From a virus, in the IMG/VR virus record IMGVR_UViG_3300002052_000030, positions 1 to 27,839 of that record: 27,839 nt of DNA; one strand, 5' to 3'. Position numbers and translations under genes: made by a program. Below the pieces are notes generated by a model. The model did no database searches, was not told the origin of the DNA, and was given only the letters and a program-made list of their open reading frames with translations. Positions 1 to 20,391 of this stretch are shown in pieces (the first letter of the stretch is position 1; each line of letters starts with the position of its first letter).

Positions 1-3000
1 CGTCCGGAACCTTGCCGGGCATAGTCAAATGAGAACCGTCAAAGACGCGATCAACGTGTGCATTGTACCGGGCATTGTAAATTTCTTTCATGTCATCCTG
101 AACGCCTTCCGTTTCGGCTACCCAGGATTGAAAACGATCATGGATTTGACTCATTTTGTAAATGGCCGTATCAGTCGCCGCCTGATCGAACCATTTATTT
201 CCGTACGCGTCCCGCCTCCAAACTTTTGGAAACCCGCCGTTCAGGATATAATCCATGAGCTTGAAGAAATTTACGTCGCGGGTGCCCCATGTATCGGTAG
301 CATGATAGGACGATTCCCCCGCCTGTCGATTCCTGTTCGCGGCCGCATTGGAAGGCCCGGTCCAAACAATATTGAATTTGCCGATATCCGGGACATGATC
401 GATCTTGAAATTCCGAACGGTCCCTTCCATCATGTCGAGCATGAAATTTCGGATATGCTTGATCGGCATCCAGGCCGCGCCTATCCTGATTTTAATATCG
501 TGGATTGGAATATCTTCCGGTTGAATCATTTGGAGGGCATCGACATTTTCCTGGAATTTTTCGTCCGTCCGGGCGGCTTGAATAGCCGTCTTCAGCTTTC
601 GCTTGACGTTCCCGCTCAAATATTCATCGGCCGTCACATAACCGCGCTCGGGATCGTTGTAGATTTTTCCTTTCAGCCTGGCAACTACGTCGTCTCTCGA
701 TGCCCCGGTAAGTTGGCTGATAAATCCGAGATCCACGCGGCCTTTATAATTCAGCGAATAAACCAGGGCTTCCGTGATATCTTCGACCGATTCTGGCGGC
801 TTGACTTTAGCGATATAGTTTTCAGAGAAGATCGCTTCCTTGCCCTTGCTCGTTTCTTCGATTTCATCCCATTTTTCAAGCGCGAGCAATACACCGGCGT
901 CCGGGTCGTCAAAGATCGCCATGACGTTCTTGCGCGAATTGATCCATCCGAATTTTTTGACGAAATTATCGTATTGTGTGTTCAGGATTTTGCGGAATTT
1001 TTCGAGTTCATCTTTGGATACTTCGGCAATGTGTCCTCTTAGCAATTCTCGAATCGTATCCCGAATCGGAATAAGAGCCCTGATCCGCTTTGCCCGGTCT
1101 TTCTGTGTCGGCGTGCGTTCCTCATACTCGATCGGGGTGCCGCCGTCATTGATGTAAAGTTTTCCGTCCTGGCCAACATAATAGGCGCCGTCCTTAATAT
1201 CGCCAGCTTTCGGCATATTTTCGAGCAAGTTCAGTTCATGGTTGACCTGGATTTCCGTGTAAACGCCGTCCGGGAGTTTCTTGGTCGCTTCATCGATCTT
1301 TTCCCCGACATTCGTGTTGTCACCGATCGTCACGACTTGCTCGCCGTATCGACCCATTTGAACGCCCATAGTGCCAAGAACCATTTCGGGATGATCCTTG
1401 AAGTATTGGTTGATATCCCTCTCTGCCTTCCAAGTCGTTTCCCGTATTGTGCCGTCTTTATTGAGATAAGGTAGCTTTTCGCGGACTGTCTCGACGAACG
1501 GATTGTCCGGTATGGGCGTGAGATTGTCGCCCCGTTTTCTGAAAAAGCAGATGTCGCAGGCCGCCTCGGCTCCGACAAAGGTACCGTTCGGGAGACGGAT
1601 GGCCCCGACCAGCTCGGCCTCTTCGGAGAAAATTTGGCGAGCTTTCGCGTTGGCCTTATCCATGGTTCCGGTGGACGTAATGATCGCCATTAGGCCGCCG
1701 GGCCGGGTAAGATTCAAGGATTTATTGATGAAGTAATCGTGAATCCTGAACCGAAACGGATTATGCGTCCGGTCGTGCGGCTGCGAATCGCCGAAGGGCA
1801 CGTTCGATATTACCAGATCGTAGAAGTTTTCCGGCATGGACACATTCTCGAACCGGTCATTGATGATGCTCTGATTCTGGTAAAGCTGCTTGGCAATCCG
1901 GGCACTGATATTGTCCATCTCGATTCCGGTTAAACTGGAAATCTTGCGGAGCTCATCCGGCATAGTCCCGAACTCCAACCCGATACCTACCGATGGAGAA
2001 AGGATTCTGCCAGGCGTAAAGCCGAATTTGGCCAGGGTCCGGTAAATAGCGTCATAGACCGCGACCGGCGTATAGTAGGCGTCTATGGTACTTCGCCGTG
2101 CCGCTTCCAGTTCTTCGTTCGTGAGGACCTCCGCGACCATGTTTGCCCGGCTTTGCCAGGCCTCAGGCGGATAATGTTCCAGGGCCGGGCTGAGTGCCCC
2201 CCAACCGGAAAACTTGGCCAGCACCTTTTGTTCCTGGGGCGTGGCGAGCCGGTCTTCTTCCTCGATTCGTTTAAGGAGCCGAATGGCGCTTATGTTATCG
2301 GTAAATCGCTGGGCAATGCTGCGTTGGTCGAGGTTGTCTGTGGTGAGGATCGTGTGGTCGATTCGTCCGGCTGACTGAACGGCATCTGAGACTTCGGAAG
2401 TATCTTCAGTTCCGTCTCCGGTGGTAGGTAAATCCGCTCCGTCATCAGTAACTCCTTCGCCGCCTGGAAGTTCACCCCCTTCCTCGACACCAGGTCCGCC
2501 AGCCCCCTCCTCACCGACTCCTGCGCCTCGATCAGTGCCAGTCGATACTCCCCCACCTTCTTTAAATGTTTCACCATCTCGGGCCGATGACTCTCCCAAT
2601 GCCGCGCCGCCTGTCGTCCAATCGCTGATAACTGTTCCATCTTCCCCCACCTCTAAATACTGAGTTTTATCGGTCTTTTCATGAACGATCGGTTCCAGAC
2701 CGTATTTGATCACATCGTCCGGGTGTACGCTTTCTCCATATCCGATAGCGCCTTGGCCGGTAAAGCCTTCCTGTCTGTATTCGTCATCGAACGCCATGAC
2801 GCCCTGGGGCTGCATCTCTGGCGCCCGGGTGGTATCCCGATAGGCATACCAGTAAAGGCCGTCTTCCGATTGTTTTCCGGCATAGAGCGCCTTGTAAATA
2901 TCTTCCAGGGTATCCAGGACTTTTTGGACATTCTCTTTCGCCGAGAGATATTCCTGCAAGGTAACCGGAACATAATCCGGTTTCATGGTCGGCACGCCGT

Positions 3001-5353
3001 TCTCGTCCCAGGTCATGCCGTCGAAGAAGGCCTTGAACAACTCATTGAATCGGTCCCGTTCTTCTTCAGTCGGGTAGGCGCCGTGCTCCCGCCTGAAAAG
3101 TTCTTCCACTGCGCCGGATGCCACAAAAGCCGGATCGACCAGGTAGTAGTTTTCCTTTTCCAGGTTATCCGCAACGTAGGCCTCAAAAGCGCGGGCGAAC
3201 ATCTCGACCGGCTGTGACCAATATTTGCCTTGTTTCCCGCCATCCAGGCCGATTGCGTCCGTCCAGAACCTGGTTTTCGAGACGAACTCGCTTTCCCATT
3301 TATCCTTGATCCAGTTCTCGGCTTCCTTGAGCCGGTTCCGACCTTTCCTCGAGGTATAATGAATACCGCGCAAGAGGTCTTCGACGGTCTGCATCATACT
3401 GCTGAGGTCGTACTTGAATTTAAAGGCGTGCTTGAGGTCGTCGAACGGGTTGTAAGAACGGTATTCCTCATTCTCGTTGTTCTTCATGCTGACTTTAGAA
3501 TAAAAATCAAACCCGTGACCCCATTCATGGGCCAGGCTGCCATCCCCGTGTGTCTTGGTGAGATTGATCGTGTTGTCTTCCGGATGAAAAGTCGCTGCCG
3601 CTCTCCCTCCGCGCCCTCGGGCACCGTACATGATCCCGAGGCGCCTTTCCATGTTGTACGATGCCGCCTTGGCAGGAGCGCCGAGGATTTTCACCAGGTC
3701 ATAGAGCGAATCGAACGTAAGGTTCACGCTCTTCTGTCTGTGCGGGCCTTCCGTCCAGTTCCCGAACGCCACGGTACCAAGGCCGAACGTATCGATCAGG
3801 TCTTGTCCTGTTACGTTTTTACCTTTTCTCTCGGCACCATCCGTCTCGATATCGAAGATTTTTCGTCGTTCCCGGACTATCTTGAGATTCTTTTCCTCAT
3901 CGTTTTCTTTCTCAATCAGCCTGTCCGTCCACTTGGTGAGGATATTTTTCTGCATGATGAAGAGGCTGTATTTCACAATATCTGTATACGATTGACCCCA
4001 TTCGGTAAGGATGCCATCCAAGGTGCCGCTGGACAGATCGTAAAAGTTGACGATATTATCGAGTTTGCGGATTTCGTAATTCGATTCGTCAACCATCAGC
4101 CTGATTAGAGCGTCCCGCGCCTGAGAAATCGTCGTGCCGCTGGTAATCGCTTCGGCGAGCTGTTCCAGGGTCGCAATGTATTTCGCCGCCATCTTCCGGA
4201 CTTCTTCTTTTCCGGTAGGGCCGCTGAGAGCTTCCTGGATGGCGTCCTCGTAGCTTTTTCCCCACCCTTTTCGGCCCCCGAATTTCTTGCCGGCCCACTC
4301 GGTGAATCCGACAATGTCACGGCGCATGGCGTTAAACCATCGGGTCAGTCCAGGTGTAGCATCCTTGGATAATTCATTGGTAGGGATCAGGGTAGCCTTG
4401 ACCGTCATGCGTTGGAGGGCGGCCAGGACTTTTTTGGTATCTGTTTCGGTGATTTCCTTGTCCAGTTCGAGCGTGATCTTTTCGATCCTGTCTTCGGTAG
4501 ACATTCCCGCCCGTTTCCAGCGGCGCTCCCCGACATCTTTGAGTTTCTTGACTTTCTTTTTCTCTTTCTTGCCTTTTTCCTCTTCCCCGACGGCTTCTTC
4601 GAGTGTGGGCGCCTTGGCTCCTTCGGCTTCTTCTATTTCCGTTATGCCCTTCAATTCACGCATCCAGCGTGAGATATAAGGCTTGATGCCATTCCCGAAA
4701 TTGTTGACCAGGAATTGAACCAGGTCTTTCAGGTTCTTTCCGGCTTCTTTCCACTTTGCCAGGGCCGCCTCAAAGTGAGGCTTGGCCGCAGCGTAGGTTT
4801 TTTCGTCTATGGCGCCAGGGAACGTCCGAACAACACCTTTTCCTCCAAAGAGTTCGTAAAGTCCCGTAATGGCCTCATCGACGCCTTGCACGCCCGCCTT
4901 GGCAGCTTTCTTGGCAATATCGGACGCTTTCGGCACGGCGGGTTTTTCTGTCGGAGGCTTGGGCGCTGTCGGTGGTACCGGTGCGGCCCCTTCTTCCGCA
5001 ACGGCCGGCGCCGCAGCCTCTTCAACCGGAGCTATTTCTTCCGGTGCGGCTTCCTCAATCATCCGTTCAATTTCCTCGATAGGCGTCTCGGCGATTTCCG
5101 CTTCGATCGCGGACACTTCCGGCTTTGGCGGGACTTCGGGTTTTATGGGAGGTTTTTTGCCGGTTGCCTGTTTTACGATATCCGCTCGTTCTTGTTCGAG
5201 ATCCCGGATAATGTCTTCCACGGCTGACACATTGGCAATCTGAGCGTCAAATCCTTCCTTGCGATATTCGGCGGCGGCATTCCTGACTTGATTCTTTTCT
5301 TCATCAGAAAAAAGGTTCGTATGTAATTCCAGGCAATGACTTAAGCTGCTCAA
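1..5353 (-). CDS. Giant polyvalent phage protein, DarB-like (zincin-like + N6-methylase + pre-helicase region), 3' end outside window
   Basis: At least 1784 residues, open to the left edge. The start is TTG at 5353, overlapping the TGA of the upstream 68-residue gene, with GGAGG seven bases before it; no ATG fits as well. Order of parts: short N-terminus; Pro/Ala/Glu-rich linker (about 55-150); Lys/Glu-rich stretch near 255-285; a region with HEWGH at 609-613, resembling the zincin-like LPD1-type domain of phage polyvalent proteins; a Gly/Glu/Asp-rich linker (about 905-985); then a DarB-type methylase region with SPSVGIG near 1118 (SAM motif I) and NVPF at 1184-1187 (motif IV, normally NPPY). 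The last visible part ends in FDGSHLTMPG, which in DarB-like proteins lies just before the SNF2 helicase domain. Family knowledge: P1 DarB is packaged and injected to protect phage DNA from type I restriction. A similar role here, helped by its place after the internal virion genes, is inference. Confidence 0.85.
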   Translation of the reverse strand, partial: MSSLSHCLELHTNLFSDEEKNQVRNAAAEYRKEGFDAQIANVSAVEDIIRDLEQERADIVKQATGKKPPIKPEVPPKPEVSAIEAEIAETPIEEIERMIEEAAPEEIAPVEEAAAPAVAEEGAAPVPPTAPKPPTEKPAVPKASDIAKKAAKAGVQGVDEAITGLYELFGGKGVVRTFPGAIDEKTYAAAKPHFEAALAKWKEAGKNLKDLVQFLVNNFGNGIKPYISRWMRELKGITEIEEAEGAKAPTLEEAVGEEEKGKKEKKKVKKLKDVGERRWKRAGMSTEDRIEKITLELDKEITETDTKKVLAALQRMTVKATLIPTNELSKDATPGLTRWFNAMRRDIVGFTEWAGKKFGGRKGWGKSYEDAIQEALSGPTGKEEVRKMAAKYIATLEQLAEAITSGTTISQARDALIRLMVDESNYEIRKLDNIVNFYDLSSGTLDGILTEWGQSYTDIVKYSLFIMQKNILTKWTDRLIEKENDEEKNLKIVRERRKIFDIETDGAERKGKNVTGQDLIDTFGLGTVAFGNWTEGPHRQKSVNLTFDSLYDLVKILGAPAKAASYNMERRLGIMYGARGRGGRAAATFHPEDNTINLTKTHGDGSLAHEWGHGFDFYSKVSMKNNENEEYRSYNPFDDLKHAFKFKYDLSSMMQTVEDLLRGIHYTSRKGRNRLKEAENWIKDKWESEFVSKTRFWTDAIGLDGGKQGKYWSQPVEMFARAFEAYVADNLEKENYYLVDPAFVASGAVEELFRREHGAYPTEEERDRFNELFKAFFDGMTWDENGVPTMKPDYVPVTLQEYLSAKENVQKVLDTLEDIYKALYAGKQSEDGLYWYAYRDTTRAPEMQPQGVMAFDDEYRQEGFTGQGAIGYGESVHPDDVIKYGLEPIVHEKTDKTQYLEVGEDGTVISDWTTGGAALGESSARDGETFKEGGGVSTGTDRGAGVGEEGAGGPGVEEGGELPGGEGVTDDGADLPTTGDGTEDTSEVSDAVQSAGRIDHTILTTDNLDQRSIAQRFTDNISAIRLLKRIEEEDRLATPQEQKVLAKFSGWGALSPALEHYPPEAWQSRANMVAEVLTNEELEAARRSTIDAYYTPVAVYDAIYRTLAKFGFTPGRILSPSVGIGLEFGTMPDELRKISSLTGIEMDNISARIAKQLYQNQSIINDRFENVSMPENFYDLVISNVPFGDSQPHDRTHNPFRFRIHDYFINKSLNLTRPGGLMAIITSTGTMDKANAKARQIFSEEAELVGAIRLPNGTFVGAEAACDICFFRKRGDNLTPIPDNPFVETVREKLPYLNKDGTIRETTWKAERDINQYFKDHPEMVLGTMGVQMGRYGEQVVTIGDNTNVGEKIDEATKKLPDGVYTEIQVNHELNLLENMPKAGDIKDGAYYVGQDGKLYINDGGTPIEYEERTPTQKDRAKRIRALIPIRDTIRELLRGHIAEVSKDELEKFRKILNTQYDNFVKKFGWINSRKNVMAIFDDPDAGVLLALEKWDEIEETSKGKEAIFSENYIAKVKPPESVEDITEALVYSLNYKGRVDLGFISQLTGASRDDVVARLKGKIYNDPERGYVTADEYLSGNVKRKLKTAIQAARTDEKFQENVDALQMIQPEDIPIHDIKIRIGAAWMPIKHIRNFMLDMMEGTVRNFKIDHVPDIGKFNIVWTGPSNAAANRNRQAGESSYHATDTWGTRDVNFFKLMDYILNGGFPKVWRRDAYGNKWFDQAATDTAIYKMSQIHDRFQSWVAETEGVQDDMKEIYNARYNAHVDRVFDGSHLTMPGKVPD

Positions 5354-18507: not shown

Positions 18508-18549
18508 GCGGGCAAACGCTTACTGACGCTTGCCCGCGTTTAAGCGTTT
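18508..18549 (-). terminator. Two mutually exclusive hairpins just after the capsid stop codon
   Basis: GCGGGCAA pairs with TTGCCCGC (18508-18515 with 18530-18537). A second perfect 9-bp pairing, AAACGCTTA with TAAGCGTTT (18541-18549 with 18514-18522), shares bases with the first, so only one can form. No U-tract follows either. Possible roles: partial attenuation, or a 3' stabiliser of capsid mRNA. Confidence 0.4.
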
Positions 18550-19333
18550 ACCCCTTTACGATGTAAACATCGACCAGGGCGGTCGGTTTCAGGACCGAAT
18601 ATCCATAGACATTGAGGCCCCTTACCAGGGTTCCGAATGTGCTCTCAGACCGTAGGGATTCCATTTTGGTCATCTGAGCGGCGAACGAGATGCCCTTCGG
18701 GTGACCGGCCAATGCGTGAAAAGCCGTGTCCGAACCATCGGTAACCGATGCGACCAGGTTGGAGCTGTAAATAGTCGCCGTATCGATCATGCCGAGCCTG
18801 CCGTTTCTCAGGATCGAAGTGCCATCCCCGGCGAGCGAGGCATCCTTGAGGTCGGACAATTTGATTTTCGCGCACGCCCAGGCGGGAAAAACAACCCACC
18901 TTCCTGTCTCGGGAATATTGTTCTCAGTAAGACAGAGCATGGCGTTTACGATTACTTCCAGAACATTAGCCGCTGTTACGGTTACCGCAGCGCTGGTTGT
19001 GCCCAGGGCAATATCGCCCGAAATAGCACCGGCGCTGTTTCCGGCATTGGACGAATCCACGTCGGCGTACACGTCTGCGAGAAGGGCGGTATCGATGGCG
19101 ATTTTCATCTGCTCCCCGGCATCGTCCGACCAACTGTCCATAAGGGCCACGTCGGTCTGGTGCTTATCGATGTCGTCACAGATGAAATTGAAATACTTCG
19201 CCTGATCGATCTCGAGTTCCACATTAGCCGATTCCGGCCTCTCGATAACCAGGGTTTGATTTTTGGAATAATCCCGAATGGTGATGTCGGGCACCGTGCG
19301 AATGATGACTTTATCGCCCATATCCTTGATCTC
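18548..19333 (-). CDS. Major capsid protein, exon 2 (residues 46-306)
   Basis: Second exon of the HK97-fold-type major capsid gene, encoding 261 residues. The reading frame upstream of the apparent Met start (19321) is EIKD, which belongs to the capsid sequence: exon 1 ends NTDYEG and the joined product reads NTDYEGEIKDMGDKVIIRTV. That is the conserved run I recall in this capsid family (TDYEG, then GDKVIIRT). Later parts (DITIRDYSKNQ, YFNFICDDIDKHQTD, GRWVVFPAW, FHALAGHPKGISFAAQMTKM) are typical of the family. The exon begins right after the intron's terminal G at 19334. The Met at 19321 has no Shine-Dalgarno sequence at useful spacing, and starting there would remove the first 49 residues. 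Confidence 0.9.
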   Translation of the reverse strand, partial: EIKDMGDKVIIRTVPDITIRDYSKNQTLVIERPESANVELEIDQAKYFNFICDDIDKHQTDVALMDSWSDDAGEQMKIAIDTALLADVYADVDSSNAGNSAGAISGDIALGTTSAAVTVTAANVLEVIVNAMLCLTENNIPETGRWVVFPAWACAKIKLSDLKDASLAGDGTSILRNGRLGMIDTATIYSSNLVASVTDGSDTAFHALAGHPKGISFAAQMTKMESLRSESTFGTLVRGLNVYGYSVLKPTALVDVYIVKG

Positions 19334-19407
19334 CGATTGTTATCGGCAGGCTCTTTATCCTGCCTTCTGCCGTTTTCACGACAGTCCAGACTATCTCATC
19401 TTTCTAC

Positions 19408-19457
19408 TTGCGAAATGAAGAACAACGGCGATATAATATTAGACATTCGCAAGGAGG
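19408..19457 (+). promoter_or_regulatory. Promoter and ribosome binding site of the intron endonuclease
   Basis: On the plus strand TTGCGA (19408-19413) and TATAAT (19432-19437) are 18 bases apart, a sigma70-like promoter with a perfect -10 box. AAGGAGG (19451-19457) follows, seven bases before the ATG at 19465. A start near 19444 would give a leader of about 20 bases. The element lies inside the intron, in the P8-to-P7 region. Confidence 0.65.
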
Positions 19458-19464
19458 TTAATTT

Positions 19465-20055
19465 ATGCAGGGAAAAAGAAAGCTTAATGTTGTATTCACG
19501 AAGGAAATACTTGAGACTGAATACAATGCCCTTCGTTCTACCGCCAAGATTGCCGAAAAGTATGGGGTGAGTAAAAAGTGCATCCTGAATTACATGAATC
19601 GATTTGGAATTGAAAGGGGGCGAAATCTTGTTCCCGCGGAGAAAGTCAAAGAACTGGCTATACGAGGACTTTCTGCGCCTGAAATCGGTGAGATCTTGGG
19701 TTTTACTCAAAGCGCGATTTCCAAAGTTGGAAGACAACTTGGAGTCGAAATTGCTGACAAATTTCACCCGGGTCACATTATCACGCATAATGGATACAAG
19801 ATGATCAGAAAGCCTGAGCATCCATACTCTGACGGCAAAGGGTATGTTCGTGAACACCGTCTTGTGATGGAAAATCATCTTGGACGCCTTCTGGATCAAG
19901 AAGAGATTATCCACCACATCAACGGCATTACGACCGACAACAGAATTGAAAATCTCAAAATTACTTCGTTGCCCGAACATACCAAAAGCCATCATTCCGG
20001 CAAAAAGGGTAGAGGCTCTGATAAAAAACCTCGAAAGAAAGCCCTGCGCTCGTGA
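19465..20055 (+). CDS. HNH homing endonuclease encoded antisense within the intron, 196 aa
   Basis: The only plus-strand gene. It probably cleaves intron-less capsid genes to spread the intron (family knowledge plus context). Residues about 22-48 (STAKIAEKYGVSKKCILNYM) and 60-93 (LSAPEIGEILGFTQSAISKV) are two helix-turn-helix segments that would read the DNA target. The C-terminal half is an HNH_3-type nuclease: REHRLV at 129-134, HHINGITTDNRIENL at 150-164 with the catalytic His and Asn, then EHTKSHH. The tail is Lys/Arg-rich. It has its own promoter and an ideal AAGGAGG site, so it does not depend on the late operon. Its direction is opposite to the intron RNA, which is unusual for phage intron endonucleases. 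Confidence 0.9.
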   Translation: MQGKRKLNVVFTKEILETEYNALRSTAKIAEKYGVSKKCILNYMNRFGIERGRNLVPAEKVKELAIRGLSAPEIGEILGFTQSAISKVGRQLGVEIADKFHPGHIITHNGYKMIRKPEHPYSDGKGYVREHRLVMENHLGRLLDQEEIIHHINGITTDNRIENLKITSLPEHTKSHHSGKKGRGSDKKPRKKALRS

Positions 20056-20256
20056 GGATTTCGCCATATCGTTATGATTTAGGTTATTTTCCTTAGTCGT
20101 TGGACCTTCGGCCCGTTTCCGGGTCGCTTGGCTGCGGATTACCCAATCCGTGGAATTTTTACAGACCGCCGATGCGTTGCCGCCCGGTATTGTATCCTTG
20201 GCTTTAAGGGAGTCCCCGCAATTCACAGGGTTTAATGAGGGCCAGATCATTGATTA

Positions 20257-20391
20257 ACCCTCGTAATCCGTATTGGAAATGGCGGCCCATACGGTACTGG
20301 CATAAAATTTCACCAGCAACATACTGGCCCACACTTCCGGAACAAAAGTGCCTGAATATTGAGGGGTTCCACTTGCAGCATTAACGGCCAT
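20257..20391 (-). CDS. Major capsid protein, exon 1 (residues 1-45)
   Basis: Forty-five codons from ATG at 20391, eight bases after AGGAGG, reading MAVNAASGTPQYSGTFVPEV and on to YASTVWAAISNTDYEG, then an in-frame TAA that is the first triplet of the intron. The SGTFVPEVW and KFY segments and the final TDYEG are the expected N-terminus of this capsid family, and the rest follows exactly in frame in exon 2. The whole protein is 306 residues. The exon lies directly after the scaffold gene, as usual. Without splicing only a 45-residue peptide would be made. Confidence 0.92.

Follow-up and report, generated by a model that had tools for sequence, protein, structure and literature searches.

A group I intron in a phage major capsid gene with an HNH endonuclease cassette in either orientation and a stop-free frame opposite the antisense form

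Structure of the capsid locus

We analyzed a stretch of 27,839 nucleotides from an uncultured tailed phage (IMG/VR record IMGVR_UViG_3300002052_000030, positions 1 to 27,839; hereafter the window), in which the major capsid gene lies in two exons separated by a group I intron (Table 1). The first-pass annotation, which had been made from the sequence alone, had already proposed that such an intron splits this gene, and its exon and intron coordinates proved exact. It had overlooked the intron's own open reading frame (ORF), an HNH endonuclease gene that runs antisense to the intron and the capsid gene.

Table 1. Features of the capsid locus, with positions in the window
Feature	Coordinates	Strand	Remarks
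Exon 1, major capsid gene	20257..20391	-	45 codons, ends GAGGGT; in-frame join to exon 2
Group I intron, 923 nt, IA-like	19334..20256	-	Last base G; RF00028; empty site in L001; covarying core in 20 homologues
Exon 2, major capsid gene	18548..19333	-	Codons 46-306 plus stop
P10 strand UGAUCU	20244..20249	-	Intron positions 8-13; pairs with exon 2 +2..+7 (AGAUCA); read from sequence
Internal guide sequence GCCCUC	20237..20242	-	Pairs with exon end GAGGGU (P1, U.G at splice site)
P8 stem 5' strand CUUUCU	20036..20041	-	One edge of the flipping cassette; switch between window and L083 maps there
P8 stem 3' strand AGAAAG	19400..19405	-	Opposite edge of the flipping cassette; switch between window and L083 maps there
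Capsid-sense open frame, 284 codons	19396..20250	-	Nearly whole intron; ATG 3 nt behind the TAA stop of exon 1
HNH homing-endonuclease gene, 196 aa	19465..20055	+	On the strand opposite intron and capsid; HNH_3 preceded by two helix-turn-helix units
Sigma-70-like promoter, TTGCGA-18-TATAAT	19408..19437	+	Predicted, for the antisense HNH gene; -35 adjoins P8 3' strand
Shine-Dalgarno AAGGAGG	19451..19457	+	7 nt ahead of HNH start codon; read from sequence

Joining the two exons yields a single open protein of 306 residues, in which NTDYEG is followed directly by EIKDMGDKV. Against PHROG 267 ("major head protein"), the joined protein scored 183 bits (residues 8-303), as compared with 155 bits for the ORF that starts at an internal methionine of exon 2. 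We found that the IMG/VR contig L001 carries an intron-free allele of the same capsid site, with exon 1 fused to exon 2; in intron-bearing relatives, exon 1 is 75-76% identical. The predicted structure of the L001 capsid, which differs from the window's protein by one residue, resembles HK97-fold capsids, with 8e16 from phage Che8 as the best match, and places the junction between codons 45 and 46 in a loop between a helix (residues 34-38) and a strand (residues 53-56). Across 29 aligned capsids, G45 was invariant and N40-Y43 and E46-I47 were nearly so, which bears out the earlier claim that the site lies in a highly conserved part of the protein.

An internal ATG 12 nt into exon 2 does open a complete ORF, but we give almost no credence to a capsid consisting of this 257-residue product with exon 1 as a separate small gene, a reading refuted by the uninterrupted 306-residue gene at the empty site of L001 and opposed also by the covariance match to RF00028, by the continuity of exon 1 and exon 2 in dozens of relatives, by the in-frame joining of the exons and the terminal intron G in 21/21 analysed introns, and by the higher PHROG score of the joined protein. 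Automatic annotation breaks up capsid genes that carry these introns.

Intron RNA structure and empty site

The first-pass annotation had suggested a covariance search and an alignment with intron-free homologues. In the former, the Rfam model RF00028 matched positions 20266-19367 on the minus strand with 58.9 bits (E 9.2e-13), above its gathering score of 50, as the sole RNA family in the window; in the latter, intron-free relatives carry exon 1 fused to exon 2. P1 with its U.G pair, P10, P3-P8, P9 and the terminal G are all present. An RNAalifold consensus built from 20 homologous introns contains a P3-P8 core with compensatory changes, and the U.G pair at the 5' splice site is present in 20/20 of them, with the P1 columns paired. 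Subgroup IA has the extra stems P7.1/P7.2 between P7 and P3; this segment holds predicted helices that vary pairwise in most members, and the subgroup label is kept tentative as IA-like. From these features, the capsid pre-mRNA would be expected to self-splice and yield the 306-residue protein.

Nucleotide identity between the window and L001 is 99.6% across 5.8 kb on the downstream side and 99.0% across 1.9 kb on the upstream side. Within the interval -1772 to +327 around the site, just two bases distinguish them; both changes are synonymous and both sit at the junction: -1 is T in the window and C in L001, and +3 is G in the window and A in L001. The window's T at -1 forms the U.G pair of P1 and its G at +3 forms a P10 pair, one that the A of the empty site would break. 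Because both bases serve the intron in this way, the two differences look like a footprint left by homing in which a short stretch was co-converted, in a comparison that comes from one genome pair. Codon 45 is GGT in 21/21 analysed intron-bearing genes and in 14/57 distinct intron-free sites (p 4e-10). The record of a further contig, L002, which starts 3 nt into exon 2, was searched and matched neither exon 1 nor the intron.

The antisense HNH endonuclease gene

The product of the antisense gene matched Pfam HNH_3 (PF13392; E 1.4e-10, above the cut-off), HTH_50 (just above the cut-off) and the HNH endonuclease family PHROG 7545 (E 2e-25). H150, H151, N153 and N159 are invariant in 11 HNH members, and divergence from the homologue in L110 is biased toward third codon positions (25/19/50%). 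The predicted model comprises two helix-turn-helix units and the HNH part, and I-HmuI is among its fold matches, with a probability of 0.97 but an E value of 0.2. Promoter-like sites precede most of the homologous HNH genes in both orientations (combined p 1.7e-4 for antisense and 8e-4 for sense), which suggests that the antisense gene is expressed from its own promoter. We also considered whether this promoter mimics the homing site, as in the operator idea for I-TevI, and found no signal (combined p 0.65). A search of genome contigs with the HNH gene returned mostly distant HNH relatives; among isolated phages, the top matches were a free-standing gene (podovirus record L246) and a gene beside ribonucleotide reductase (L247), with no capsid introns.

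On our reading, the locus holds a mobile IA-like intron that interrupts the major capsid gene at codons 45/46, for which an empty allele exists and whose P1 and P10 guides fit the flanking exons, as can be read in the sequence. The HNH endonuclease, made from its own opposite-strand promoter, would cut intron-free capsid genes at the conserved GGT/GAR (the slash marks the insertion site), and repair of the cut gene would copy the intron in; the two junction bases may reflect short co-conversion during this repair.

Orientation of the endonuclease cassette

Queries with intron motifs, the HNH gene and the capsid recovered introns at the same site from many IMG/VR contigs, among which capsid identity falls from about 78% to 36%. 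At least 23 distinct same-site introns bear an HNH gene, 9 of them in antisense orientation (window, L064, L085, L097, L105, L106, L110, L113 and L118) and 14 in sense orientation (L083, L099-L104, L115, L119, L121, L122, L124, L256 and L262). The antisense arrangement recurs across independent assemblies (L064/L065, L113/L114 and L106/L107). In group I introns of phages, the endonuclease gene is usually sense; as a rough baseline, we took 19 phage introns from any gene that share the core motif and a long P8 insert, and the longest ORF was sense in 16 and antisense in 3.

The clearest case is the comparison of the window with L083. The flanks run parallel (70% and 83% identity), while intron positions 218-856 align to 863-225 of L083 on the opposite strand (63%), and the HNH proteins are 60% identical. 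The entire cassette, including the promoter and the ribosome-binding site, is inverted between collinear flanks, and the boundaries of the switch coincide with the P8 stem, whose columns covary in antisense and sense introns alike. The C-terminal tails of the HNH proteins follow orientation: antisense genes often stop in the P3-side core (ALRS-stop, PHS-stop), and several sense genes have their stop within the P7 3' strand (KI-stop, EIV-stop, DIV-stop).

The HNH tree requires at least 7 orientation changes (bootstrap 5-7), the capsid tree at least 6 and the ribozyme tree at least 4 (3-5), and these exact counts are soft, as starred branches alone force only 1-2 changes. A single antisense clade was rejected on all three (p 0.0005 for HNH, 0.0003 for capsid and 0.017 for the ribozyme), with p values that derive from related introns and are not fully independent. 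At the level of sequence, these comparisons show that the HNH cassette in the P8 loop at one capsid site has switched orientation several times. The two arms of P8 form an inverted repeat, so that flipping the loop would leave the ribozyme unharmed and would take the promoter along with the gene.

The two orientations could instead stem from separate insertions of related HNH genes, or from swaps of cassettes between introns, which we judge unlikely but a serious contender. Transfer of HNH cassettes from one intron to another is known, and if a relative lying in the opposite direction replaced the resident cassette, the outcome could in some cases pass for an inversion. The trees of HNH and ribozyme have many weak branches and agree only loosely, which leaves room for such replacement. 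Against it stand the inversion of a complete cassette between collinear flanks with its edges in P8 (window and L083) and the maintenance of P8 pairing by compensatory changes in both classes. An intron family that has both nuclease orientations at a single capsid codon offers a test of how orientation affects splicing, expression timing and homing.

A stop-free capsid-sense frame

The capsid-sense frame that spans nearly the whole intron of the window is the codon-for-codon complement of the HNH gene; within that gene, it can therefore be closed only by TTA, CTA or TCA codons. The window's HNH gene has none of these codons where 3.1 were expected, a pattern repeated in 7 other antisense introns. 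In 8/9 antisense introns, the capsid-sense strand is open almost throughout, with 0 stops opposite the nuclease as compared with 23 expected; L106, the sole antisense intron with stops in this frame, also bears a second intron just upstream. All nine antisense HNH genes together contain 4 such codons (all in L106) where 30.6 were expected from the codon usage of genes on the same contigs, whereas the twelve sense introns contain 82 where 64.6 were expected on the same basis. Among leucine and serine codons, TTA, CTA and TCA account for 4/227 in the antisense and 82/317 in the sense genes (p 8e-17). Statistically, then, an antisense HNH gene goes with an opposite capsid-sense strand that is kept free of stops.

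We considered whether the open frame might be a by-product of codon bias or G+C content. TTA, CTA and TCA are indeed uncommon in several of these phages, but this is already built into the expectation from the same contigs' genes (30.6 against 4 seen), the sense-oriented relatives use these codons freely (82 against 64.6) at overlapping G+C content, and the openness is limited to the codon-aligned frame, with 4-20 stops in each of the other two frames opposite the HNH gene. We therefore regard a by-product as improbable. Neither is stop avoidance a general rule for antisense intron nucleases: in other phage introns, three endonucleases lie antisense to a matching frame with 14-19 stops. These lie in L385 (GIY-YIG-like), L401 and L441 (apparently LAGLIDADG-like), each as an antisense ORF in a P8 loop whose sense strand is not open.

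The frame starts with an ATG 6-12 nt into the intron in 7/9 antisense introns, and most of these ATGs lie at the exon 1 stop codon or shortly after it, near an upstream GAGG. In L064, L097 and L113, the frame is open throughout and continues in frame into exon 2; in L064 (3948-5789, plus strand), this gives an ORF of 613 residues from the P1 region of the intron across the whole intron into exon 2. These starts and extensions would fit a frame that encodes either a working protein or a variant N-terminus for the capsid, a reading we consider slightly more doubtful still than codon bias. The frame ends inside the intron in the window, L110, L105, L085 and L118, and third positions of the HNH gene, which are first positions of the sense frame, show the same degree of divergence (50-66%) whether antisense or sense pairs are compared; the protein sequence of the sense frame is therefore not what is kept, and we rejected a conserved protein on this ground.

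Our tentative reading, which we hold as possible and short of probable, is that the cassette is invertible about P8 and that its antisense form has been selected for a stop-free pass-through frame, maintained as translatable and not for its protein. In the least certain step, ribosomes that stop at the end of exon 1 would restart at once on the intron ATG, and as a best guess, equally uncertain, these ribosomes would cover the unspliced capsid mRNA and limit premature transcription termination. Such coverage runs counter to the established view, put forward in a review, that ribosomes are kept out of group I introns by a stop just behind the splice site (PMC3073962). That stops are avoided opposite the antisense gene suggests selection acting on the translation of unspliced phage mRNA. 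Taken as a whole, the explanation in five parts (a mobile intron, splicing, homing by an antisense HNH enzyme, cassette flips at P8 and a guarded sense frame) appears to us likely.

Comparison with known systems

The first-pass annotation had stressed that introns are rare in phage capsid genes. Rarity is a fair description, but novelty does not hold, as capsid introns of LittleE and Tuc2009 have been published (PMC3706429). The mycobacteriophage LittleE (JF937101) has a group I intron in its major capsid gene, with splicing shown by N-terminal protein sequence, and as in the window its HNH gene lies on the opposite strand; the capsid intron of lactococcal Tuc2009 is cited in the same paper (PMC3706429). 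Unlike the family described here, LittleE is a single case with no sense/antisense pair, and there are 2 stops in the frame opposite its endonuclease. By BLASTP and HMM comparison, the LittleE endonuclease showed no similarity to that of the window and was ruled out as a homologue.

The closest parallel for two orientations comes from the nuclear rDNA introns L2066 and S956 of Didymium and Diderma, where one site holds a sense or an antisense endonuclease and the antisense gene is thought to have its own promoter (PMC9548176, PMC3073962). These differ in being eukaryotic rDNA introns with His-Cys box enzymes in P9 and no translated host gene, and they comprise two introns bearing endonuclease genes, as opposed to repeated switches within a phage capsid family. 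Every intron endonuclease of T4 lies in sense orientation (PMC2988022). The T4 td intron with I-TevI is likewise a mobile phage group I intron whose ORF extends into the core of the ribozyme and is served by a promoter of its own (PMC2988022, PMC3073962), though its enzyme is a sense GIY-YIG nuclease and its host gene is not a capsid gene. The methylase insertion of ShiLan is also a mobile HNH insert in which the host-gene strand is stop-free, but there the HNH gene shares the strand of the host gene in a different frame, no intron was detected and the insert is read through in the host frame (PMC11855218).

Our literature search, mostly without subscription papers, found no report of endonuclease-gene orientation switching in phage introns and none of stop avoidance opposite a phage intron endonuclease. 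Capsid introns and antisense intron nucleases are thus already known separately, while repeated flipping and a guarded sense frame look new. The group I intron of Bacillus phage SPO1 encodes the HNH enzyme I-HmuI, whose HNH part resembles the predicted model of the window's enzyme; it lies in a DNA polymerase gene in sense orientation and has other DNA-binding modules.

Decay, additional introns and neighbouring genes

Some relatives look decayed: the antisense HNH gene of L085 (5392-5829) lacks the N-terminal helix-turn-helix part and is likely a decaying copy. That the window's intron has likewise degenerated and lost splicing or homing is very improbable, given its intact core, splice-site pairs and HNH motif and a required capsid gene that needs splicing.

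Several other introns lie at or near this part of the capsid gene. Short introns with no ORF occur at or near the same site in L338 (2773-3062) and L388 (1-260) and could be used as minimal versions. L106 (IMGVR 3300037088_000027, capsid strand, around oriented position 2249) has two capsid group I introns separated by a 9-nt micro-exon, TACGAGGGT (Tyr-Glu-Gly), of which the upstream one has no ORF; L107 has the same arrangement. Similarly, in L262 (1900-2260) and L346 the same-site intron is closely preceded by a short group I intron that lacks an ORF, with an exon of about a dozen bases between them. A different intron, below the Rfam gathering score, lies near capsid codon 20 in L044 (about 4356-4996) and L038 (about 4340-5000) and carries a sense LAGLIDADG-like ORF. 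Elsewhere in the window, positions 2-5353 on the minus strand encode a protein of more than 1784 residues with methylase/helicase-like motifs, which we take to be typical of the large polyvalent proteins of phages.
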